Positions 10,324-20,964 of a stretch of 32,270 bases of DNA are shown one piece after another (the stretch's first letter is position 1; every line of letters begins with the position of its first letter). The stretch comes from Lactiplantibacillus daoliensis. Its GTDB lineage: Bacteria; Bacillota; Bacilli; Lactobacillales; Lactobacillaceae. A program made the translations under genes and the position numbers. The notes beneath the pieces were generated by a model, which saw nothing but the letters and a program-made list of their open reading frames with translations, searched no databases and was not told the origin of the DNA. The stretch covers positions 1-32,270 of the forward strand of contig NZ_BJDH01000009.1 of assembly GCF_005405005.1 (NCBI RefSeq), written 5' to 3'.

Positions 10324-10336
10324 TTATTTAAATAAA

Positions 10337-10860
10337 GGTTGAAAGACTCAAAAGCATTACAAATGGAGCAGTATCAGTAACCATTACGTCTAAAGTAGAC
10401 TCATCTAAATGTAACGCTCCATCAGTCAAAATCGGTGTGCTGTGGCGAACGGCGCCAGCCAAGGTACGGTCTGACGCCTCAATTCCAAGCCGATAAAACA
10501 CGTCTCGGAATTGCCCCGCGAGATTAGTCAGCCAAGCACGCCGACTAATCTCGCCGACACTGCACACTGATTTTGACTGACTCCGCTAAGCGTAAATAAC
10601 TACTGACTTAGCTGGAGGTTGTTGCTGATAGCATCGGACGTGCAGGTGGCGTTTGACCGGCGCTTTTTGCCGATCTTACACCACGGACGGTACGGGAAAT
10701 TTGCGGTTTTGGCAAAGTTCCCGTACGAGGCTCAAGACGTTTTTAAGGCTTGAGCCAGTCCCTCGTCCGCATGTTATCAGCAACAACCGGAAGCGGCAGT
10801 AATCGACTAGTTTTCATTGTCTGATTATTGGGCCAAATCAGCAATTTTTAACTTTCACCC
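10337..10860 (-). repeat. Structured intergenic element, copy 1 (inverted orientation)
   Basis: About 525 bp, and the reverse complement matches copies 2 and 3. Ends are GGTTGAAAG (10337-10345) and CTTTCACCC (10852-10860), an imperfect inverted repeat. Inside are two modules. Module A (10618-10787) is bounded by near-complementary arms of 23-24 nt beginning GTTGTTGCTGATA. Module B (10422-10580) is bounded by TCAGTCAAAATCGGTGTGC and its complement with one change. Several shorter hairpins lie within each. GTTATTTAA occurs just outside both ends (10323-10331 and 10865-10873), a possible target-site duplication. The right end abuts the stop of the ABC permease gene, so the element may also end that transcript. 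No open frame here is credible. Confidence 0.88.
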
Positions 10861-10869
10861 TTCAGTTAT

Positions 10870-11895
10870 TTAAGCTAATTTCTTAATTTTAAAAGCATCA
10901 AACGCATGGTCTGGACGATAAAGGATCAAACGACCAACACTCCACGTCAGATAACCAATGACAATTGCTAAAACTAAGCTGACACCAAATGGCATTTCAC
11001 CGGCATAGTTATTAACGACGATGGCATATACCGTTCGGCCAAATGAGGAAAAGCCAACCGCAACCGCCAAATAAACAACGGTTAACCACAAGAAGACCGT
11101 TCGGAAACGTGGAAATAGCATAAAGTTACCCGCATTTTCCAGTGACAAATGCTTGAAGGCCCAGTGATCCATTAGCCATAAAAATCCAATGATCACGAGA
11201 CTTATGCCAGTAAACAAGCTGAGTCCTGACCAGGTCGATTGATCAAGGTCAGCCAAATAACTGGTTTTATAGGGATTCACCCCAATGGCATAACTAAAGA
11301 GGTTAAATGCCCCTTCCAAGGCAAAAATCAGGCTTGGAATCGAGATAATGGTAAACAAGGCGCTTGCCACTGCTTGTCCGAGCCACAAACCAATCGTTGC
11401 TACAATGGCATATAACGCTAACAAGAACATTAATTGGCTGAAGGTATACCGTAATTCTGGCCCCCAGCTTAAATTAAAGCTGGCAGCACGACGAATCATT
11501 AAACGCAGCGTTCCTAAGAACACGAGATGCATCGCAACAAAACTGCTGACAACCGTACTACCAAAGATCACTAATTTCTGGTTAAATAATTGCTGGCGAG
11601 TCGCCCGTAAACTAAATAGATAATGATTAAAATTCGTGTAGTTATCCCACATAAACGTCACCCATCCGAGAATCAGCACAACGATAAAATTAACAAATAA
11701 CATTGTCGTGCCACCAACTGACGCCGTATAACCACCGCTAGTAAATGCCCGTGTCGTAGCTTTGATTGCCACGCCGTTCGCTGTCATGACTTCATTGGCC
11801 GCCTTAAACCCAGTAATTAACAAAACTGCGATGGCAGTGCCTAAAATTCCTCGATAGCGATGCCATAATAGGCATCTAACTTCATGATTACTCAT
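10870..11895 (-). CDS. ABC exporter membrane subunit
   Basis: The 341-residue product is strongly hydrophobic, with about seven to eight predicted membrane segments. The first is after residue 15 and the last is near 300-320. It lies 14 nt downstream of an ABC ATPase and ends next to repeat copy 1. The organisation regulator-ATPase-permease is typical of YtrA-controlled exporters responding to cell-envelope stress or antimicrobial peptides. The substrate cannot be read from the sequence. AGGGGG stands about 10 nt before the ATG. Specific family membership is not recognised beyond ABC-2-like architecture. Confidence 0.8.
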   Translation of the reverse strand: MSNHEVRCLLWHRYRGILGTAIAVLLITGFKAANEVMTANGVAIKATTRAFTSGGYTASVGGTTMLFVNFIVVLILGWVTFMWDNYTNFNHYLFSLRATRQQLFNQKLVIFGSTVVSSFVAMHLVFLGTLRLMIRRAASFNLSWGPELRYTFSQLMFLLALYAIVATIGLWLGQAVASALFTIISIPSLIFALEGAFNLFSYAIGVNPYKTSYLADLDQSTWSGLSLFTGISLVIIGFLWLMDHWAFKHLSLENAGNFMLFPRFRTVFLWLTVVYLAVAVGFSSFGRTVYAIVVNNYAGEMPFGVSLVLAIVIGYLTWSVGRLILYRPDHAFDAFKIKKLA

Positions 11896-11909
11896 TGTTT
11901 GATTTCCCC

Positions 11910-12803
11910 CTATGACAATAATTCATAATCACCAGCATCCGTCAAATTGGCCATAAATAGGTCAGTTAACGATAATGGTAGTGTCTCTTGAAAAGCTGGC
12001 TCAGTCGCCGCTAACGCCGTTTGTAACGTTGGTGTAAAGTCTTCAAAAACAACGACGATGACTCGACCAGAAACATTGACGATGTGTCCCTGTTCTCGCA
12101 ATAATGTGGGAATCTTCTTATCACGGTAAACGAGTTGCAACTTACGCGCTTGTGACCGCATCGTTTCTAATTGATAGTCGTGAATCAGGCGTCCGGCTTT
12201 CAACATCAACGCACGATCAATAATGCCTTCTAATTCACTCAAATTATGTGACGCAATCATAATCGCCCGTTTTTGCGAGGCTGCTTCATCAATTAGGATA
12301 CTTAGGACGTTCTTACGTACAATCACATCCAGCCCATCTAGCGGTTCATCAAGGAAGATATATGGCGCGTTAGTTGCTACGCTGAGAATAATGGTGAATA
12401 ATCCGAACATCCCTTTGGAGAAATGCCGTAATTTTTGATTAGCTGCTAAATGATATCTCGTTAATAGCTGCGTAAACTTTTCTTCATCAAAATCGGGATA
12501 AGCAGACAGATAGTACCAGGCGACCTGTTGTGCCGTCGCTCCCTTGAAAAAGTTTGCTTGTGGATCAACAAAACTTAAACGAGTACGCAAAGCAGGATTC
12601 GCCAGCAAGTCTTCGCCATCGACAGTAATCGTCCCCTGATCGGCTAAATACTGACCATTGATACTCCGAAATAGCGTTGTTTTCCCAACACCATTACGCC
12701 CGATCACGCCCACAATCTGTCCAGGCTGAATTTCAAAACTGATTTGGTCCAATGTTGCCTCATGGTTAATTTGCTTACATAAGCCACTAACTTTCAAACT
12801 CAT
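11910..12803 (-). CDS. ABC exporter ATP-binding subunit (YtrB-like)
   Basis: The product has 297 residues from the ATG at 12801-12803, chosen because GGAGGGG lies 8 nt upstream and the ATG overlaps the regulator's stop in ATGA. A longer frame to 12833 has no ribosome site. Walker A is GRNGVGKT (35-42), Walker B is in YIFLDEPLDGLD, and the switch His lies in IASHNLSELE. The signature is HFSKGM rather than LSGGQ, a variant common in this exporter class. It powers the adjacent permease. The C-terminal 80 residues follow the ATPase core and may regulate it. Confidence 0.9.
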   Translation of the reverse strand: MSLKVSGLCKQINHEATLDQISFEIQPGQIVGVIGRNGVGKTTLFRSINGQYLADQGTITVDGEDLLANPALRTRLSFVDPQANFFKGATAQQVAWYYLSAYPDFDEEKFTQLLTRYHLAANQKLRHFSKGMFGLFTIILSVATNAPYIFLDEPLDGLDVIVRKNVLSILIDEAASQKRAIMIASHNLSELEGIIDRALMLKAGRLIHDYQLETMRSQARKLQLVYRDKKIPTLLREQGHIVNVSGRVIVVVFEDFTPTLQTALAATEPAFQETLPLSLTDLFMANLTDAGDYELLS

Positions 12804-13162
12804 AATGACTGCCCCTCCATTTTCGTTAACCAAGTGATTAAGTCGGCGATGGTTATCCCCGCCTGACTCGCTTCAGCCACCAATTGTTGTAATTTCAACT
12901 GAAGGTCTGCCTGCGCTACGGTTGCGTCCATGGCATTCACATAGGTGCCTTTACCCGGAACCGTCCGAATCACTTGTTGCGTTTCTAGCTGCTTATAGGC
13001 CTTACTGACTGTATTAGGATTGAGTAGGTGCTGCTTGGCCATCTCACGTACCGATGGTAATTGATCATCAGCTTGTAAGATACCCTGCACAATCTCACGT
13101 TTCAGGCCTGCCACTAGTTGCGCGTAGTACGGTTGTCCACTATCATGGTTAATCACAACCAT
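12800..13162 (-). CDS. GntR-family regulator, YtrA subfamily
   Basis: The 120-residue product has an N-terminal winged helix (about residues 10-75) with LPSVREMAKQHLLNPNTVSK, the usual GntR recognition region, and GKGTYV in the wing. Only about 45 residues follow, the short helical dimerisation tail that defines the YtrA subfamily. It is the first gene of the operon and is translationally coupled to the ATPase by ATGA. GGAGG stands 8 nt before its ATG. YtrA regulators repress their own exporter operons and are relieved by envelope-acting drugs; that is family knowledge, and the inducer here is unknown. Confidence 0.92.
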   Translation of the reverse strand: MVVINHDSGQPYYAQLVAGLKREIVQGILQADDQLPSVREMAKQHLLNPNTVSKAYKQLETQQVIRTVPGKGTYVNAMDATVAQADLQLKLQQLVAEASQAGITIADLITWLTKMEGQSL

Positions 13163-13177
13163 GCCGTCACCTCCGTA

Positions 13178-13221
13178 ACTGTATTATACTGTACTAAGTG
13201 TATTGTACGGTGTCATACAGT
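13178..13221 (-). promoter_or_regulatory. Promoter and possible operator of GntR-ABC operon
   Basis: A minus-strand -10 TATAAT (13183-13188) lies about 25 nt upstream of the GntR start. No good -35 is seen. Around it ACTGTAT (13178-13184) and ATACAGT (13215-13221) form an inverted repeat, with GTAC/GTAT motifs repeated between them. This pattern suits autoregulation by the dimeric GntR protein. Confidence 0.45.
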
Positions 13222-13262
13222 CAGGGGCAAGTGCTGAGTTGTTAATTTTTGGTAAATTAAAA

Positions 13263-13283
13263 GACCATCCTGATTAGATGGCC
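13263..13283 (-). terminator. Terminator of the antitoxin-like gene
   Basis: In minus-strand sense GGCCATC pairs with GATGGTC across a 7-nt loop, followed by TTTTAATTT. One pair is G.U on this strand only. Confidence 0.65.
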
Positions 13284-13298
13284 TACATTTGACCCCAA

Positions 13299-13535
13299 CT
13301 ACCAAACGTTCTCCTTACCGATTATTGTGCCATTATCCTTGATCAGCATGCCACGCAATGCAGTCTTAAGATCATATCCTGAATCCGCCGAAAATCCCCT
13401 TGGACTGACTGGTACAAAAGAAATTATCCCGCTCTCATCCCTCACCGGTTGATATTCTGCGTTAACCGGAAATTTAAACGCTGCTGGAATTGCAATCATT
13501 AGGTCATTCCCATACTTTTTTGTCTTAACTATCAC
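13299..13535 (-). CDS. Orphan MazE/PemI-like antitoxin
   Basis: The 78-residue product starts with KTKKYGNDLMIAIPAAF, the swapped-hairpin AbrB/MazE DNA-binding pattern (K..K.GN...IAIP). It continues with a SFVPV strand and a flexible C-terminal tail as in toxin-neutralising antitoxins. The start is GTG at 13535, with no clear ribosome site. No MazF/PemK-like toxin gene is present on either side: the neighbours are an acetyltransferase 40 nt upstream and the GntR operon downstream. It may be a relic, an antitoxin acting on a distant toxin, or a plain regulator. Confidence 0.65.
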   Translation of the reverse strand: MIVKTKKYGNDLMIAIPAAFKFPVNAEYQPVRDESGIISFVPVSPRGFSADSGYDLKTALRGMLIKDNGTIIGKENVW

Positions 13536-13575
13536 TAGTCACATTTGGATTGGATAGACACCTATATTTATTTTA

Positions 13576-14103
13576 CTAAACCAAGACTCGAGTCATGGTC
13601 GTCACCGCCAAGCGGCCGTTTTCCGCCAACGGTAAGAACAACTGATCACCGTCATCAAAACCTAACTTTTTCCAGAAAGCCTCGGCAGCCGTATCCGCTG
13701 AAACACGCGTCAATTGTAAGCAGTGAATATCGCTCTTGAGTGCAGCCTTCATTAAGCCAGTTGCAATCACACTCCCAACTGACCGACGCTGATAGTCGTT
13801 ACCAACCATCAACAAGCCAATAAACAAGAAATCTCTTTCCGGATATTGATTCAAAATATCTAACACTGCCACTAGATGATTGGCCAGATAAAAACCAAAA
13901 ACCTGTTTTTGGGCTGCTTCAATTTCATCAGGATGAGCCGTTAAATCATCGTGGATTTCAGCTAATGTTAAGTCATTTGGCGAAAATTGGCGATGGTACT
14001 CAGGGTTACTTTGTTCCAACGCCAATAATTCGGCTTGATCGGCGTCAGTCAAAAAACGAATCTTAAAATTGGGTAATTCTGCTTGTAACGTTGCTAATTT
14101 CAT
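13576..14103 (-). CDS. GNAT acetyltransferase (second of pair)
   Basis: The product has 175 residues from the ATG at 14101-14103, which has TTGGAGT about 8 nt upstream. The in-frame upstream extension overlaps the previous gene and is rejected. It has a GNAT fold pattern: an N-terminal beta-alpha region, LFIGLLMVGNDYQRRSVGS in the acetyl-CoA-binding A motif (Q/RxxGxG-like), and AEAFWKKLGF in motif B. The substrate is unknown. It begins 5 nt after the stop of another acetyltransferase gene, so the two form one transcript. Confidence 0.85.
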   Translation of the reverse strand: MKLATLQAELPNFKIRFLTDADQAELLALEQSNPEYHRQFSPNDLTLAEIHDDLTAHPDEIEAAQKQVFGFYLANHLVAVLDILNQYPERDFLFIGLLMVGNDYQRRSVGSVIATGLMKAALKSDIHCLQLTRVSADTAAEAFWKKLGFDDGDQLFLPLAENGRLAVTTMTRVLV

Positions 14104-14108
14104 ATTTT

Positions 14109-14594
14109 TTACTCCAATGTTTTTTCTAAGTTGTACCAAGTTTCGCCAGCATGACTAGATGCCGCCACACCTTGGTTTTGGTAGCCATTACTTTCATAAA
14201 ATGGGATTAAACGTTCTAAACAAGTTAATGAAACACTTTTTCGTTGGGCTTTACGCGCTACTTGCTCCAATGCCGTCAACAATTGACTCCCAATCTTTTG
14301 ATGCCGCGCCAATGGTGAAACCGCCAGCGTGAACACGAGTTGATGTCCGCCGTGGTCTAGATTGGTCGGCGTCTTGGTAAACATCTCATCCTCAATGAAA
14401 CGTGCCGGCACGGCTGGGCCAACGATGAATCCTAGGACAACTGCTGCTTCGCGGGCAACTAAAAACGTCTCCGGTAACCTTTCAATCCGATCACGATACA
14501 CCGCTTCACTTCCAGCTTCGGCTGCTGAGAAGCCCGCTTTTTCAATCGCCATCAATTGTGGTAAATCTGTCATCTTTACTGGTGTTATTTTCAT
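14109..14594 (-). CDS. GNAT acetyltransferase (first of pair)
   Basis: The 161-residue product has FTLAVSPLARHQKIGSQLL, the GNAT A motif with RHQKIG as the pyrophosphate-binding loop, and LIPFYESNGY as motif B. The arrangement, including the acidic EKAGF start region and the long loop before the A motif, resembles small AANAT-like acetyltransferases, which modify amines; the true substrate is not known. AAAGGAG stands 8 nt before the ATG. The gene leads a two-gene operon. Confidence 0.88.
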   Translation of the reverse strand: MKITPVKMTDLPQLMAIEKAGFSAAEAGSEAVYRDRIERLPETFLVAREAAVVLGFIVGPAVPARFIEDEMFTKTPTNLDHGGHQLVFTLAVSPLARHQKIGSQLLTALEQVARKAQRKSVSLTCLERLIPFYESNGYQNQGVAASSHAGETWYNLEKTLE

Positions 14595-14621
14595 CTGATT
14601 ACTCCTTTTGCAAGTACATCC

Positions 14622-14630
14622 AGTATAGCA
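14622..14630 (-). promoter_or_regulatory. Extended -10 promoter of GNAT pair
   Basis: In minus-strand sense TGC-TATACT at 14622-14630 is an extended -10. A clear -35 is missing. It lies 28 nt upstream of the start codon. Confidence 0.5.
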
Positions 14631-14717
14631 AAATCAAGGCCATTCGGCGGATTTTTCCATTCAGGAAACTTTTAACGTCGTAAAAAAGTAAATGACGTGT
14701 CGTATCACCTACTGACA

Positions 14718-14726
14718 TGCTATACT
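14718..14726 (+). promoter_or_regulatory. Extended -10 promoter of ASCH gene
   Basis: TGC-TATACT, the same motif as the divergent GNAT promoter, lies 64 nt upstream of the ASCH start. The -35 is weak. Confidence 0.5.
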
Positions 14727-14789
14727 AAGGTTGTGAATTCGGTTACATCAATGTGAATTCAATATTCTTATTGAAATTAGGTGACTATC

Positions 14790-15257
14790 ATGCCAGCACA
14801 ATCAGCAGAACAATTATGGAAAGACTTCAATGAAACTACAGATACTAACGGTGCTTCTTATCAAACACGTTGGTTTGGAGATCAGAACAAGCCCGCCGAA
14901 GTTCAAGCATTAACCGATGCCATTTTATCAGGAACCAAAACGGCAACAACCACACCACTTGATTCATACACCGCGGAACAAGTTGCTATCCCACAAGTTG
15001 GTGACTACAACGTCCTCTTAAACGGTGACATGAAACCTGTTGCGATTCTTAAAACAGTCGTCTCAGAATTAGTGCCATTTTATCGAATTTCCGGTGAACA
15101 CGCCTATCACGAAGGTGACGGCGATGGCACAATCGGTGATTGGCGGAAACGTAAGACTGAAGAATTTACACCAGCCCTGGAAGAACATGGTGCTTCCTTA
15201 ACACCAGATACCCCAATGGTTAGTGAAGTCTTCGAAATCGTCTTCCGTGCAGATTAA
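14790..15257 (+). CDS. ASCH-domain protein
   Basis: The product has 155 residues from the ATG at 14790, chosen over an in-frame GTG at 14781 because AGGTG at 14779-14783 fits as its ribosome site. It has the ASCH pattern: WFGDQN, a GTKTATT loop with Lys and Thr, IPQVGDYNVLLN, AILKT strand, and GDGDGTIGDWRKR near residue 115. ASCH domains share the PUA fold and bind RNA or hydrolyse modified nucleosides such as N4-acetylcytidine; which applies here is not evident. It has its own promoter and terminator. Repeat copy 2 begins right after that terminator. Confidence 0.85.
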   Translation: MPAQSAEQLWKDFNETTDTNGASYQTRWFGDQNKPAEVQALTDAILSGTKTATTTPLDSYTAEQVAIPQVGDYNVLLNGDMKPVAILKTVVSELVPFYRISGEHAYHEGDGDGTIGDWRKRKTEEFTPALEEHGASLTPDTPMVSEVFEIVFRAD

Positions 15258-15272
15258 CTCAATACTAATCAC

Positions 15273-15306
15273 GGCCTGAGACCGGTGTGTCTTAGGTCTT
15301 TTTTTG
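15273..15306 (+). terminator. Terminator of ASCH gene
   Basis: CCTGAGAC pairs with GTCTTAGG (one G.U) and is followed by a seven-T run. Confidence 0.8.
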
Positions 15307-15322
15307 ACTTGATCAACTAAGA

Positions 15323-15694
15323 GGTTGAAAGTTAAAAATTGCCGGTCTGCGCCACCACGTCAATAATCAGACGGTGAAAACTAGTCGATTGCTGCTTCCG
15401 GTTGTTAGTAGTTATTCTTTGGATAAATTCGTTATTTATGCTTAGCGGAGTCAGTCAAAATCGGTGTGCAGTGTCTGCGAGATTAGTCGGCGTTCTTGGC
15501 TGACTAATCTCGCAGGGCAATTCAAAGACGTGTTTTATCGGCTTTGAATTGAGGCGGCAGACCGCACTTTGGCTGGCACCGTCCCCCACAGCACACCGAT
15601 TTTGACTGACGGAGCGCTGAGTGTTGCAAGTCTACTTTAGATGTGACGGTTTTTGGTACTGGGACATGTGTGATGTTTTTGAGTTTTTCAACCT
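15323..15694 (+). repeat. Structured intergenic element, copy 2 (short form)
   Basis: About 372 bp, from GGTTGAAAG (15323-15331) to TTTCAACC (15687-15693 region). Module A is missing: GTTGTT at 15401-15406 joins directly to AGTAGTTATT, which in copy 1 follows the module. Module B is intact with perfect 19-bp arms at 15451-15469 and 15591-15609. Inside it TGCGAGATTAGTC pairs perfectly with GACTAATCTCGCA, and CAATTCAAAG (15518-15527) with CTTTGAATTG (15542-15551). It is the best-folded copy. It lies between the ASCH terminator and the promoter of the pot regulator. Confidence 0.9.
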
Positions 15695-15819
15695 TGACTT
15701 AGTCAGCTTTAAACCCTAACTGCATTCAGTTTGAACTGACAAAGTAACTAAAACTAAACGTCATAGAACCGAAACTCAACTTTCATCAAAATGTAACTTT
15801 TCTTCAACGAAACTTTCGC

Positions 15820-15825
15820 TATAAT
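15820..15825 (+). promoter_or_regulatory. -10 box of the XRE-potABCD operon
   Basis: TATAAT at 15820-15825 lies about 58 nt upstream of the regulator's start. No good -35 lies 16-18 bp before it, which suggests an activator or a weak promoter. Confidence 0.45.
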
Positions 15826-15882
15826 AATTAAAGCTTAAACTAAACTTGTTGTTTACTATTACAAAACAAAGCGGTGATTGTC

Positions 15883-16425
15883 ATGGATATCGGTCAACGC
15901 ATCCGCAACCTGCGTATGCAAAAACAACTGACCCAAGAAGAACTCGGTGAACGCACAGATTTAAGCAAAGGCTATATTTCTCAGCTTGAACATAATCAGT
16001 CCTCACCCTCGATGGAAACTTTCTTTGCCATCTTAGAAGTACTAGGCGAAACTCCGGCTGCCTTTTTCACGCCAGAGAAGCCTACCGACAAGATTGTTTA
16101 TCATCCCAATGAACAAATCGTATTTGACGATGAAGCCCTAGGTTATCAGCTAAAATGGTTAATACCGGCATCGAATGAAAACGAACTCGAGCCAGTTAAG
16201 ATTACTTTAGCTCCCAATGGTCGCTTCAAACCTTTCGAGCCTTCGCCAGCGGAGACGTTAATTATCGTCCAAGCTGGCACGCTCAATTTACACCTAGGAT
16301 CACAAGACTATCGTGCTACTGATGGCGATAGCTTGTATTTCCACGCAACGCAGGCGCACCAACTCACGAATATCGGACTCGAACCATGTACGTTCACCCT
16401 CGTGACCACCGCGTCCTACTTGTAA
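15883..16425 (+). CDS. XRE-cupin regulator of the polyamine operon
   Basis: The product has 180 residues from the ATG at 15883, preceded by GGTGA; an in-frame GTG at 15874 would place the start on that site. It has an N-terminal helix-turn-helix (about residues 4-60, with LTQEELGERTDLSKGYISQL) and a C-terminal cupin barrel (about 105-178). This is the PuuR-like layout, in which the cupin senses a small metabolite, often a polyamine. It is 20 nt upstream of potA on the same strand, so it very likely controls the transporter. Whether it activates or represses is not shown. Confidence 0.92.
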   Translation: MDIGQRIRNLRMQKQLTQEELGERTDLSKGYISQLEHNQSSPSMETFFAILEVLGETPAAFFTPEKPTDKIVYHPNEQIVFDDEALGYQLKWLIPASNENELEPVKITLAPNGRFKPFEPSPAETLIIVQAGTLNLHLGSQDYRATDGDSLYFHATQAHQLTNIGLEPCTFTLVTTASYL

Positions 16426-16445
16426 CTTAAAAGGAGGCTTTCAAA

Positions 16446-17543
16446 TTGGCGGTTAATACACAACCAATCATTCACCTAACCAATGTCTGCAAAAGTTATG
16501 GTGACCAGCAGATTCTTAAAGATATTAATTTAGAACTCGAAGCAGGAAAATTCTACACGTTACTGGGGCCTTCTGGCTGTGGTAAAACGACCATTCTACG
16601 GACGATTGCTGGCTTTACCGATGCTACATCCGGGCAAGTTTATTTTGATGGTCAAGTCATCAACAACCTACCAGCAAACCAGCGGCAAGTTAACACCGTT
16701 TTTCAAGATTACGCCTTATTTCCTCATTTAAATGTGGCTGAAAATGTCGGCTTTGGCTTAAAACTACATAAAATTGCTAAGGCAGAAATCGATAAACGGG
16801 TTCAAGAAGCCCTATCACTCGTTCAACTAGGTGACTTTGGCAACCGTGAAATCGGTGAGATTTCTGGTGGTCAACAACAACGTGTCGCGATTGCCCGCGC
16901 GTTAGTTATGCAGCCCAAGGTTTTGTTACTCGACGAACCTTTATCAGCACTAGACGCCAAGTTGCGTAAAGACATGCAGTATGAACTGCGTGACTTGCAA
17001 CAACGATTAGGAATCACCTTCTTGTTTGTGACCCATGACCAAGAAGAAGCCCTCGCGATGAGTGACGAAATCTTTGTGATGAATAATGGTCAAATCCTAC
17101 AAGGTGGCACGCCCGTCGATATTTACGATGAACCTATCAACCATTTTGTCGCTAACTTTATCGGTGAAAGTAATATCATTCCCGGTAAAATGTTGAAAGA
17201 CTATACAGTCGAATTTGTCGGCAAACAATTTGAATGTGCTGACGCTGGGATGCGCCCAGATGAAGCTGTCGAAATCGTGTTACGCCCAGAAGATTTGGAC
17301 ATTGTGCCAGCCGCCCAAGGAAAACTAGTGGTTACTGTTGATTCACAGCTTTTCCGGGGCAATTATTTCGAAATCGTGGCTTATGACAATGACCACAACG
17401 AGTGGCTCGTCCATTCAACCAATCCAGCTGATGAAGGCACACCGATTGGCTTGACCTTTGATCCGCAAGACATCCACGTCATGCGGTTGCACGAAACCGA
17501 AGCCGCCTTCGATGCGCGCCTCGAACAATACGAAGACGATTAG
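16446..17543 (+). CDS. potA: Spermidine/putrescine ABC importer ATPase
   Basis: The 365-residue product starts at TTG (16446), supported by AAGGAGG 8 nt upstream; no ATG lies near. Walker A is GPSGCGKT (41-48), Q-loop Gln87, signature ISGGQQQR (139-146), Walker [12 protein letters not shown] (160-170) and switch His197. The C-terminal third (about 235-365) is the TOBE/OB regulatory region typical of PotA and MalK-like ATPases. It drives polyamine uptake through PotBC. It stands 12 nt before potB in one operon. Confidence 0.96.
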
Positions 17544-17555
17544 GGGGGAATCGCT

Positions 17556-18392
17556 ATGCAACGAAAACAACGCTTGAGCCGCAACACGGCTTACTTTGTC
17601 CCCTATACGCTTTGGATTCTACTGTTCGTCATCGCGCCGGTACTGCTATTAATTTACCAGTCATTTTTTAATATCGATGGCCAGTTTACCTTCGCTAATT
17701 ATCAAACTTACTTCTCATCGAGCACCTACTTGATGATGACGGTCAATTCCGTCTGGTATGCGTTTCTAATTACATTGGCGACCCTTTTGATTAGTTATCC
17801 AACGGCGTATCTTTTAAATGAGACCAAGCATCCGCAACTTTGGCTTTTGCTAATCATTATGCCAACTTGGATCAACTTGCTGTTGAAAGCCTATGCATTT
17901 ATCGGAATCTTTAGTCAAGCCGGCATCGCCAATCAATTTTTAAGCTTTATTGGGATTGGGCCAAAGCAATTGCTATTTACTAATTTCAGTTTTATCTTCG
18001 TCGCGGCCTATATTCAAATCCCATTCATGGTCTTGCCAATCTACAATTCCATCAGCGAGCTGAAACCGTCTTACGTCAACGCGAGTCGCGATTTAGGCGC
18101 GACTAATTGGCAAACGTTCAGTCGGGTAATTTTTCCACTAACGTTACCTGGCGTTAAGGCTGGGATTCAGGCCGTCTTCATTCCTTCGTTATCACTCTTC
18201 ATGTTGACCCGTCTAATCGGCGGTAACAAAGTGATCACGTTAGGGACGGCCATTGAAGAACACTTCTTGACCACGATGAATTGGGGCATGGGCTCCACGA
18301 TTGGGGTCGTCCTAATTGTCGCGATGGTCATTATCATGTGGCTCACTGGTGGTAGTGGCAAACGCCACGCACGAAAGGGGCTGACAAAATGA
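17556..18392 (+). CDS. potB: Spermidine/putrescine ABC importer permease B
   Basis: The 278-residue product has six membrane segments and the conserved cytoplasmic EAA-like loop ASRDLGATNWQTFSRVIFPL near 176-195, which docks on PotA. An uncleaved N-terminal segment starts at about residue 15. GGGGGG precedes the ATG by 6 nt. Its end overlaps potC by 4 nt (ATGA), so the two permease subunits are translationally coupled. Confidence 0.96.
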   Translation: MQRKQRLSRNTAYFVPYTLWILLFVIAPVLLLIYQSFFNIDGQFTFANYQTYFSSSTYLMMTVNSVWYAFLITLATLLISYPTAYLLNETKHPQLWLLLIIMPTWINLLLKAYAFIGIFSQAGIANQFLSFIGIGPKQLLFTNFSFIFVAAYIQIPFMVLPIYNSISELKPSYVNASRDLGATNWQTFSRVIFPLTLPGVKAGIQAVFIPSLSLFMLTRLIGGNKVITLGTAIEEHFLTTMNWGMGSTIGVVLIVAMVIIMWLTGGSGKRHARKGLTK

Positions 18393-19201
18393 CGCAACGA
18401 CGATTTAAATGGCGCAACCTGTACCTTTGGTTAGTATTTATCGTGTTATACGCGCCCATCATTTTCTTAGTGGTCTACTCTTTCAGTAAGGGTGACACCA
18501 TGACTAATTTTCATGGCTTTACTTGGTCACACTATCAAGACTTGTTTGCGGATACCCGTTTAATTGCCATCTTTTTAGACACTTTATTAATTGCTTTACT
18601 TTCGTCACTATTAGCAACAGCCGTTGGGACGCTGGGGGCACTCGGAATTAATAATACGACTCGCCCAGTCACCAAAAACACCCTGTTAGCACTGAACAAT
18701 ATCTTGATGGTGTCACCAGACGTCATTATCGGTGCGAGCTTCTTGATCTTCTTCACCGCCTTAAAGATTCCTTTGGGATTCGGTTCCGTTTTACTGAGCC
18801 ACATTGCTTTTTCGATTCCAATCGTGGTCTTGATGGTTTTACCGAAGATTCAGGAAATGAGTACCAGTTTGCTCGATGCCGCTGCCGATTTAGGCGCGAA
18901 TAACTGGCAACTTTTGAGCCAAGTCATCGTGCCCTACATCATGCCCGGAATTTTCTCGGGCTTCTTCATGGCACTGACGTACTCACTGGATGATTTCGCT
19001 GTCACCTTTTTCGTCACTGGTAATGGTTTTACGACCTTATCCGTTGAAATCTATTCGCGAGCTCGGCAAGGCATCAATTTGGAAATTAACGCCTTATCTG
19101 GCCTAATGTTCTTAATGGCGATGGTATTGGTCATCGGCTACTACTTTATTAATCAATATAGTAGTCGGCATCGCTCCAACGTTAGGGGGCGGCGGAAATG
19201 A
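18389..19201 (+). CDS. potC: Spermidine/putrescine ABC importer permease C
   Basis: The 270-residue product has six membrane segments and the EAA-like loop AAADLGANNWQLLSQVIVPY (about 168-187). It pairs with PotB as the membrane channel. Its end overlaps potD in another ATGA, so all subunits are made from one coupled message. The Ser/Arg-rich tail (SRHRSNVRGRRK) is cytoplasmic. Confidence 0.96.
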   Translation: MTQRRFKWRNLYLWLVFIVLYAPIIFLVVYSFSKGDTMTNFHGFTWSHYQDLFADTRLIAIFLDTLLIALLSSLLATAVGTLGALGINNTTRPVTKNTLLALNNILMVSPDVIIGASFLIFFTALKIPLGFGSVLLSHIAFSIPIVVLMVLPKIQEMSTSLLDAAADLGANNWQLLSQVIVPYIMPGIFSGFFMALTYSLDDFAVTFFVTGNGFTTLSVEIYSRARQGINLEINALSGLMFLMAMVLVIGYYFINQYSSRHRSNVRGRRK

Positions 19202-20268
19202 AGAAACTCTTTAGTGTGATCATTGCTCTCTTCGCAGTTTGCGGTCTGTTGGCATTTGGTGCACATCATCTGCAATCTAGTACGGGTAGTACCGGTTCAA
19301 AAGTGCTCAATTTATACACTTGGGGAGACTACATTGACCCAAATCTCCTGAAAAAATTCCAAAAGGAGACGGGTTATCACGTTAATGTTGAAACCTTCGA
19401 CAGTAACGAAGCGATGTTCACCAAAATCAAACAAGGTGGGACCAGCTATGATCTGACCGTGCCAAGTGACTACATGATTGAAAAGATGAAAGAAGCTAAG
19501 TTATTGTTACCATTGGATAAATCCAAGTTAACTGGTATGCAAAATTACGATTCCCGTTTCATGAACCTGGCTTTTGACCGTGACAATAAATACTCCGTGC
19601 CCTATTTCTGGGGAACGTTGGGCATCATTTATAATGATAAATATGTCAAACCAGGAAGTATTCAACACTGGAATGACCTCTGGGAACAAAAGTACCAGAA
19701 TAAGATCATGTTGATTGACAGCGCGCGTGATGTGATGGGATTTTCGCTCGCTTCGATGGGGAAATCAATGAACACCACCGATCCAGCAACCCTGTTAGCG
19801 GCCGAGAATAAGCTTAATCGGCTGGCACCTAACGTTAAAGCGGTCGTCGCTGACGAAATCAAGATGTATATGATTCAAAACGAAGCGGCCGTGGCGGTTG
19901 ATTGGTCCGGTGAAGCTTCCGAAATGCTCGATGGCAACTCACACTTGCATTACGTGGTGCCATCAGAAGGCAGTAATCTCTGGTTTGATAATTTAGTCAT
20001 TCCTAAGACCGCCAAACATTTCAAAGCCATCTACGCATTCTTGAATTTCATGAGTGAGCCTAAAAACGCGGCCCAAAATGCCGAATATATCGGCTACGCG
20101 ACACCAAATAAAAAGGCGAAAGCATTGTTACCTAAAGCCATTCGCAATGATCGGCAGTTCTATCCTGATAATCAGACGATCAAACATTTACAAATCTATC
20201 AGAACTTATCACCAGAAAAAGTCGGTCTTTATAATGACCGTTATTTGGAATTTAAGATGCATCATTAG
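19198..20268 (+). CDS. potD: Spermidine/putrescine-binding protein
   Basis: The 356-residue product is an extracellular type I solute-binding protein. LNLYTWGDYIDP near residue 37 and YDLTVPSDYMIEKM near 84 are PotD/PotF signature regions, and WSGEASEML near 234 lies in the ligand cleft. The N-terminus is one hydrophobic segment. The only early cysteine (Cys16 in FAVCGLLAF) is not in a usual lipobox, so the protein may be held by an uncleaved N-terminal anchor instead of lipid. It is last in the operon and followed by a strong terminator. Confidence 0.95.
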   Translation: MKKLFSVIIALFAVCGLLAFGAHHLQSSTGSTGSKVLNLYTWGDYIDPNLLKKFQKETGYHVNVETFDSNEAMFTKIKQGGTSYDLTVPSDYMIEKMKEAKLLLPLDKSKLTGMQNYDSRFMNLAFDRDNKYSVPYFWGTLGIIYNDKYVKPGSIQHWNDLWEQKYQNKIMLIDSARDVMGFSLASMGKSMNTTDPATLLAAENKLNRLAPNVKAVVADEIKMYMIQNEAAVAVDWSGEASEMLDGNSHLHYVVPSEGSNLWFDNLVIPKTAKHFKAIYAFLNFMSEPKNAAQNAEYIGYATPNKKAKALLPKAIRNDRQFYPDNQTIKHLQIYQNLSPEKVGLYNDRYLEFKMHH

Positions 20269-20274
20269 TCCGAC

Positions 20275-20312
20275 AAAAAGTGGCCGAGAAATTGATTCTC
20301 GACCACTTTTTT
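20275..20312 (+). terminator. Terminator of the potABCD operon
   Basis: AAAAGTGG and CGAGAA pair with TTCTCG and CCACTTTT, with one internal mismatch, followed by TTTTTT. Repeat copy 3 starts immediately after it. Confidence 0.88.
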
Positions 20313-20849
20313 GACTCAACAGCTAAAATTGTTGGCCTGCGCTATCACGTTAATAACCAGAAAATACAAATAGTCGATCACTGTCACTTCCGGTTGTTAC
20401 TGATAACATGCGGACGAGGGAACGGTTCAAGCCTTAGGGACGTCTTGAACCTCGTCCGGAGACTTTGCCAAAACCGCAAATTCCCCGGACCGTCCGTGGT
20501 GTAAGACCGGCAAAAACACGCCGGTCAAACGTCACCTACACGTCCGATGCTATCAGCAACAACCTCCAGCCAATCAGTGGTTCCAGGGGATAAATCCATT
20601 ATTATGTTTAGCGGAGGCAGTCGAAATCGGTGGGCGGTGTCGGCAAGATTAGTCGGCGTTGTTGGCTGACTAATCCTGCGGGGCACTTCAAAGACGTGGT
20701 TTTCCGGCTTTAAAGTTAGGCGTCAGACCGTACCTTGGCTGGCGCCGTCCCCCACAGCACACCGGTTTTGACTGACGGAGCGTTAAATTTAGGTGAATCC
20801 TACTTTAGACGTAAAGGTCACTGGTGCTACATCTCGATGCTTTCAACCT
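20313..20849 (+). repeat. Structured intergenic element, copy 3 (long form)
   Basis: About 537 bp, same orientation as copy 2. The left end is diverged (about 20313), and the right end is CTTTCAACC at 20840-20848. Module A lies at 20393-20563 and module B at 20618-20774. Compared with copy 1, the hairpin at 20424-20451 has GGTTCAAG/CTTGAACC where copy 1 has GGCTCAAG/CTTGAGCC, a two-sided change that keeps the pair. Further paired changes occur in the 15-position stem at about 20455-20490 and in ACTTCAAAG/CTTTAAAGT (20685-20716). It is more degenerate than copy 2. It lies between potD and the CPBP gene. Confidence 0.9.
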
Positions 20850-20964
20850 TTAACTCACTGATCCGTTGAAAGACACAGTATTGACCGTTACACCCGACAA
20901 TTCATGGTTCAATCCAAGCTTCACATGGTAAACTAAACGTAAGCATCACTTTGGAGGGTTTAAA

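Follow-up and report, generated by a model that had tools for sequence, protein, structure and literature searches.

Does the fold of a repeated intergenic element in Lactiplantibacillus daoliensis serve a function, and in which molecule would that fold act? The question arises from a 32,270-nt stretch of this genome (the window; G, L, and g numbers denote genomes, loci, and genera, respectively). A preliminary description of the window had reported three copies of an element that share a fold and whose hairpin arms change together, and had suggested a functional folded RNA or DNA. The three copies were found at the places described (Table 1), yet they belong to a population in the order of a hundred elements in the genome (71 distinct ones were examined; a first look at the genome gave 119 candidate places, the best 40 of which were scored). 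The reading that we favour, with moderate confidence, is that the element is a non-autonomous mobile repeat of two back-to-back modules with a selected fold that would act as RNA in cis.

The full element has a length of about 555 bp and consists of terminal inverted repeats (TIRs; CTAAAGGTTGAAAG) and two modules of about 170 nt that are termed arms A and B. The consensus of the copies in the own genome spans 560 columns and folds at -250.7 kcal/mol into a TIR stem, arm A (columns 84-257), and arm B (columns 303-481). The fold of a module on its own outward strand exhibits a long basal stem that closes three hairpins. Two window modules were compared with dinucleotide shuffles, and none of the 200 shuffles was equally stable for either module (z = -10.5 and -9.0). 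The 39 nearly full copies in the own genome exhibit pairwise identities of 0.81-0.87 (5th-95th percentile), where the arms are 0.88 and 0.87 identical and the subterminal and middle parts are 0.68-0.78 identical. Short forms that lack arm A, arm B, or both also exist. Their junctions differ, which fits independent loss of palindromic arms.

The covariance model of arm A (R2) matches arm B on the opposite strand in the own genome (52.7 bits at L001 and 41.7 bits at L111). The covariance model of arm B (R1) has 80 matches on 48 loci from other genera and G008. Neighbouring R1 matches within 600 bp were arranged as (-)(+) in all 30 cases with spacers of 56-378 bp, and a further 20 modules stood alone. 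In another set of 60 loci, which overlaps the first, 43 of 43 pairs were divergent and 21 modules stood alone. When pairs are counted by distinct sequence, the orientation is divergent in 56 of 56 neighbouring pairs. The cross-match of R2 and the divergent pairs thus indicate that a single module of about 170 nt forms the unit and that the element consists of two units placed back to back with their 5' ends inward. To judge from its homology on the opposite strand, arm A is a diverged, inverted copy of arm B. The shared fold of the preliminary description is retained, but as two inverted modules on a transposon-borne miniature inverted-repeat transposable element (MITE), of which copy 2 is a one-armed form; the TIR ends and the direct repeats had gone unseen.

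The arms quoted in the preliminary description are present in the window. The pair CAATTCAAAG/CTTTGAATTG, the change from GGCTCAAG/CTTGAGCC to GGTTCAAG/CTTGAACC, and the change from GTACGGG/CCCGTAC to GTCCGG/CCGGAC are correct. The pairs CAATTCCGAG/CTTGGAATTG and ACTTCAAAG/CTTTAAAGT are also present, but the former has one G-T wobble inside and the latter has one C-A mismatch inside. Its proposal that pairing is kept over sequence is borne out beyond the window, as two-sided changes exceed those in shuffled, slid, and tree-simulated controls, which were used here in place of R-scape. Among 74 aligned rows from the own genome, compensatory double changes numbered 45 in arm A (21.5 expected) and 72 in arm B (28.9 expected), compared with 2 in the TIR stem (3.3 expected) and 17 in the neck (14.1 expected). 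RNAalifold on sequence-only MAFFT alignments identified two-sided changes at 41 of 55 pairs in arm B (45 sequences) and 31 of 45 pairs in arm A (48 sequences). The sequence-only alignment of arm B with 44 distinct sequences has 277 two-sided cells, against 77 in the shuffled and 26-33 in the slid controls. The same 277 cells stand against a mean of 49 and a maximum of 74 in 200 tree-simulated alignments, a lenient null without a paired root start. The 80 modules have 1332 such cells (372 shuffled, 175-211 slid) and exhibit changes on both sides at 50 of 55 pairs, in an alignment that was made by the covariance model and hence fitted to the structure.

The changes that weaken a pair are also unequal between the two strands. 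Arm B exhibits 131 G-U against 44 A-C on the + strand (28 pairs against 8, p=0.001; the p-values of the wobble bias are generous as related copies are not independent). The ratio of G-U to A-C is 180:65 in the 80 modules from other genera and G008. Single changes in the arm helices of the own genome, written on the + strand, are 158 G-U to 93 A-C in arm B and the opposite, 71 to 115, in arm A. Fold stability can be compared between strands with no alignment of pairs. In 41 of 44 arm B modules and 45 of 47 arm A modules, where the strand was assigned by sequence homology, the fold of the own strand is more stable than that of the complement. The same was observed elsewhere in 74 of 80 modules and in 98 of 102, two overlapping sets with the strand assigned by the model. 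Because G-U pairs mark a single-stranded fold, the G-U bias indicates that the fold is read as a single strand.

Constraint was examined at loci where the element has stayed in place. The comparison comprises 15 orthologous B modules from four g42 genomes and one g16 pair, with one comparison per locus picked by the author; register-shifted comparisons, those of G207 (74% identity), and one g16 locus that is identical in module and flanks were left out. Paired sites differ at 56 of 1626 positions (3.4%) and unpaired sites at 50 of 940 (5.3%), compared with 130 of 803 (16.2%) in the outer flank and 136 of 858 (15.9%) on the spacer side. Single changes kept the pair in 28 cases against 10 A-C breaks (p=0.005), with 12 other mismatches, and one of the three double changes kept the pair. 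All 48 overlapping comparisons that passed gave 67 pair-keeping changes to 20 A-C breaks (31 were dropped). Partner A modules, which were not selected by score, are 92.6-98.9% identical at nine of the 15 loci. The module copies of g42 and g16 genomes are also alignable by eye and their spacers and flanks are not. Concerted evolution was rejected on the basis of two elements compared across three genomes, where identity is 92-98% between orthologues and about 80% between paralogues of a single genome.

Covariation, own-strand wobble, and constraint in place together point to a selected single-stranded fold. Within this limited and partly selected set of loci, the fold appears to be selected in place, not only for transposition. 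The wobble bias, the strand-specific stability, and the slow change at fixed loci thus support the earlier suggestion of a functional folded RNA or DNA. In three g42 genomes (L326, L327, and L328), the same genes are accompanied by two elements in syntenic positions, which is long persistence at fixed loci. An autonomous element bounded by the g42 modules that lie 3.6-3.8 kb apart was considered and rejected, as L326, L327, and L328 each hold two full elements around ordinary genes.

The element also carries the marks of a transposon. The 14-bp TIRs (CTAAAGGTTGAAAG/CTTTCAACCTTTAG) have 129 matches in the own genome with at most two mismatches, against 29 for the reversed control. The 8-bp direct repeats around copy 1 of the window are perfect. 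G020 contains copies that look young. Among its 16 copies with paired TIRs, 11 lie between exact direct repeats that reach 7 bp or more (up to 11 bp, most often 8 bp, in five copies), compared with 1 of 240 when the flanks of different G020 copies were paired. At the one site tested for an empty counterpart, the joined flanks of the G020 element L184 align without interruption to G010:C21:45710-46382 (query 3-660, 73% identity); the own genome and G020 both hold elements at this site. Locus L221 of G020, which is a sister species, has TIRs 1.57 kb apart (the left end with one mismatch, the right end exact) around an intact 457-aa transposase at 760-2133, which scores 460 bits with the NCBIfam IS4 family model (cut-off 250) and has the Pfam domains DDE_5 and DDE_Tnp_1. 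At E<=1e-40, four of the 21 congeneric genomes have this transposase, which is intact in G020 and G008, has one internal stop in G019, and is broken in G010. Judged by its TIRs, its target repeats, the empty site, and a partner with the same ends, the element in Lactiplantibacillus is a MITE, and the shared ends suggest mobilisation in trans by an IS4-type transposase.

Mobilisation by a RAYT/Y1 transposase was rejected, as the presence of PF01797 does not follow the presence of modules: it is absent from 6 of the 13 module-bearing genomes tested (G020, G004, G016, G162, G226, and G216) and present in all three module-free congeneric genomes (G001, G002, and G011). Insertion behind terminators in the manner of a group II intron was considered and dropped, as the ends and the target repeats are those of a DDE transposon. 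The L221 transposon itself is inserted directly after an apparent terminator. Many intergenic sites are occupied in several congeneric species (e.g., L127/L190 and L020/L187), some in opposite orientation, and insertion sites seem to be reused.

A search of the own genome with copy 2 gave 89 segments that match at E<=0.001, and the arm B model identified 115 modules among 137 scored places. The genomic contexts of 71 distinct elements or parts in the own genome were assessed from predicted open reading frames (ORFs) of at least 80 aa rather than from a gene caller, by which 64 of the 71 copies were classified. There are 29 copies between convergent, 28 between tandem, and 7 between divergent ORFs. 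Another 4 lie at the edge of a locus, 3 have a neighbour that is distant, and none is inside an ORF.

The arm B model has matches in 18 of 21 congeneric genomes (except G001, G002, and G011). With 137 places scored in each genome, the numbers of modules are 115 in the own genome, 111 in G020, at least 137 in G007, and 134 in G014. The congeneric genomes G019, G015, G005, and G003 (3.3-3.7 Mb) have 12-78 far weaker matches (best E 6e-8 to 1e-10), which are perhaps a diverged subfamily. Across Lactobacillaceae, matches were identified in 29 of 201 genomes and 8 of 40 genera when the best 14 places were scored per genome, and most of the other matching family genomes have at least 13 modules each. 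The search at order level, with the best 9 places scored per genome, identified matches in 9 of 295 genomes at E<=1e-4, three of which are outside the family. Both g20 genomes with a match, which lie outside Lactobacillaceae, have a single module in sense between purD and purE (Table 1), and the remaining g20 genomes searched have no module match. G333, also outside the family, has four R1 matches at three loci (L401, L403, and L404), two of which are in L401 in the same direction. A phage or plasmid origin was rejected, as neither copy 3 (by blastn) nor the g20 module has a match in the phage or plasmid collections and a 19-base core has no exact match in viral contigs.

We infer that the selected molecule is likelier to be RNA than single-stranded DNA (ssDNA). 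Transcription from either neighbouring gene would cross one module in antisense and the other in sense, and the divergent design would supply a correctly folded sense module whichever side is transcribed. The module RNA would then act in cis on the tail of the transcript, possibly in stability, in processing, or as a protein-binding site. A self-transcribed pair of small RNAs was rejected, as the promoter scan found no promoter of the modules' own and no module-directed enrichment.

Several observations weigh against a fold that is selected as RNA in cis. The best promoter score upstream of modules, 5.39 (standard error 0.15), is little higher than that of shuffled sequences (4.91, standard error 0.18) and level with that of the antisense strand (5.32). 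The ratio of G-U to A-C in arm A is 62:47 on its own strand (47 and 62 as written on the + strand), which is not significant alone, and the six matches outside the family exhibit no strand preference (3 of 6). Tandem contexts comprise 14 copies in the same direction and 14 in the opposite direction, which speaks against regulation of specific genes. Whole genomes can do without the element, as no match was identified in 3 of the 21 congeneric genomes and in 172 of the 201 genomes of the family. Many copies lack one arm with differing junctions, as is expected of decaying repeats. The orthologous loci were drawn from top-scoring lists, which favours conserved modules. The arms change at about the pace of the flanks, as judged by eye, in the Lactiplantibacillus orthologous pair L114/L115 (G004/G016), where constraint may be weak or lost. 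The mobile part of the reading is also affected. A search of the own genome for the L221 transposase found nothing at E<=1e-40, so the mover there has been lost or is a different one. No conserved IS4-type ends were seen in the g42 and g16 alignments, which were inspected by eye with no pattern search, and no target repeats were seen by eye outside Lactiplantibacillus.

The same observations were weighed under other explanations. The fold might be selected as ssDNA for mobilisation in the manner of REPINs, where a transposase recognises two inverted folded modules and the bias reflects G-T wobble. The inverted modules, the poorly conserved spacer, the extragenic position, the high copy number, and the strand-specific folds correspond to the REPIN layout as described in PMC3116915, and the divergent orientation of all 56 distinct pairs and the lack of promoter enrichment directed at modules also agree with this explanation. 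However, modules that have stayed in place at orthologous loci appear to be under constraint, the distribution of Y1 (absent in 6 of 13 module-bearing and present in 3 of 3 module-free congeneric genomes) does not fit, and the ends, the target repeats, and the partner transposon in Lactiplantibacillus are of the DDE IS4 type. We regard selection as ssDNA as unlikely, though it deserves serious consideration. The copies might instead be functionless relics of a decaying MITE, with a fold that stems from an active master copy and compensatory changes that were inherited from subfamilies. The tight identity among the 39 nearly full copies, the arm deletions with differing junctions, and the three congeneric genomes without the element are what such decay would leave. 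This explanation was already disfavoured by the fixed loci, where paired sites differ by 3.4% against 16% in the flanks with a 28:10 bias to kept pairs; the g42 and g16 modules that remain alignable by eye when spacers and flanks do not, and the reach of the fold over eight genera of the family, also stand against it. We consider it improbable.

Two explanations without a selected single strand were given still less weight. A role as a nucleoid or gyrase site has been proposed for REP and BIME elements, and the modules might likewise act as double-stranded or cruciform DNA, e.g., at such a site between convergent genes. This agrees with the 29 of 64 classified copies between convergent ORFs, the absence of any of the 71 copies from the inside of an ORF, and the even orientation relative to genes. 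The own-strand bias is left unexplained because a cruciform exposes both strands, and there is a slim chance that this explanation holds. Quasipalindrome correction by template switching keeps hairpin arms complementary, and the compensatory changes might thus arise by mutation through switching between the arms. The double changes in the arm helices are indeed mostly Watson-Crick. However, template switching is expected to be strand-symmetric, and it explains neither the excess of G-U over A-C on one strand, which is opposite for the two arms, nor the slow unpaired sites of the module (5.3% vs 16.2%). We find this account very hard to credit.

The fold that we favour as an RNA acting in cis matches none of the curated RNA families searched. 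The preliminary description knew of no named family with this make-up, and none was found in Rfam 15: in a search of the window, 13 loci from Lactiplantibacillus and other genera, and 5 from outside the family, none of the 4227 models reached its gathering score for the element, and a known Rfam RNA was rejected. The relaxed search of three loci gave weak matches of microRNA models alone, which lie outside the elements. A purine riboswitch at L120 60-158, about 1.3 kb from the G014 element, is the sole match that reached a gathering score in the searched loci. No account of the repeat was recognised among the openly licensed papers that were searched.

Three known systems resemble the element. 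REPINs are described in PMC3116915 as extragenic pairs of inverted structured units around a spacer that is less conserved, with about 100 copies in one genome and compensatory changes, and the element exhibits all of these characteristics. However, its units are three-hairpin modules of about 170 nt rather than palindromes of 20-40 bp, as REP sequences are described in PMC3733652. It also exhibits no association with a Y1 transposase, has DDE transposon ends in Lactiplantibacillus, and resides in Lactobacillaceae. The bcr1-bcr18 repeats of Bacillus cereus are, according to PMC3446304, intergenic, with MITE-like members (bcr1-bcr3), members with conserved structure (bcr10 and bcr18), and 40-51% of the copies of the 18 families within transcripts. 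The element is likewise an intergenic repeat with MITE-like members and conserved structure. It differs by its two inverted modules in about 555 bp, its presence in eight genera, and its IS4-type partner, and its size and layout set it apart from bcr1, for which PMC2267715 gives 147-167 bp. The element shares with IS4-family MITEs the TIRs that match an IS4-type element (one exactly, one with a single mismatch), the target repeats, and an interior with no ORF noted. However, this interior is unlike L221 beyond the ends, as judged by eye, and carries an apparently selected fold that is also found in other genera without such ends being seen.

A broader proposal is put forward tentatively, as one that is possible rather than probable. 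The modules may represent a previously unnamed structured RNA class of Lactobacillales, in which a three-hairpin module stands singly in sense in an operon in some genera and has been amplified in Lactobacillaceae as divergent transposon-borne pairs, which would be selected at many loci for a general role on transcripts entering from either side.

Mobile repeats in intergenic DNA tend to be interpreted as parasites or short palindromes. In the present case, a large and intricate fold extends across several genera of food and gut bacteria and is apparently selected where it no longer moves, in a layout that gives one correctly oriented module to transcription from either side. The element makes a question of long standing testable, namely whether high-copy structured repeats of bacteria are passengers that are tolerated or parts that do work in transcripts. 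As Lactiplantibacillus is amenable to culture and to genetic engineering, expression, structure, and the effect of removal are measurable.

The features of the window are listed in Table 1 with the purD-purE modules. All three window copies lie between genes, near apparent intrinsic terminators of their neighbours, as read from the window.

Table 1. Positions of the elements and their parts in the window, and of the modules between purD and purE (positions within loci L400 and L402).
Feature	Position	Strand	Basis and remarks
Left 8-bp direct repeat TTATTTAA of copy 1 (target-site duplication)	10324-10331	.	Read from sequence
Copy 1, full element	10332-10865	-	TIR ATAAAGGTTGAAAG (10332-10345) and CTTTCACCCTTCAG (10852-10865); sequence, TIR scan, profile match columns 2-559, 602 bits
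Copy 1, arm B module	10410-10588	own strand -	-99 kcal/mol; covariance-model match 10419-10583 (-)
Copy 1, arm A module, inverted homologue of arm B	10616-10789	own strand +	-96 kcal/mol
Right 8-bp direct repeat TTATTTAA of copy 1	10866-10873	.	Read from sequence; overlaps stop codon of ORF 10870-11895 (-)
Copy 2, short element, TIRs eroded, arm A lost	about 15318-15698	+	Sequence, genome search, TIR scan, profile
Copy 2, arm B module	15443-15621	+	-101 kcal/mol, z = -10.5; covariance-model match 15448-15612 (+), E 2.3e-44
Copy 3, full element, left TIR eroded	about 20312-20853	+	Right TIR CTTTCAACCTTTAA at 20840-20853; sequence, TIR scan, profile
Copy 3, arm A module	20391-20565	own strand -	-95.5 kcal/mol, z = -9.0; arm A model match in L111, 191 bits
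Copy 3, arm B module	20609-20787	+	-86 kcal/mol; inverted match by arm A model, 41.7 bits, E 9e-10
purD-purE module, L400	1501-1642	-	E 6e-11
purD-purE module, L402	1501-1636	+	E 2e-7

The motif AGAC...GGCU, whose stem has an unpaired A that is conserved, is common to two of the three hairpins of the module (e.g., at about 15518-15551 and 15554-15580 of the window). The letters of this motif are among the invariant columns of the arm B alignment.

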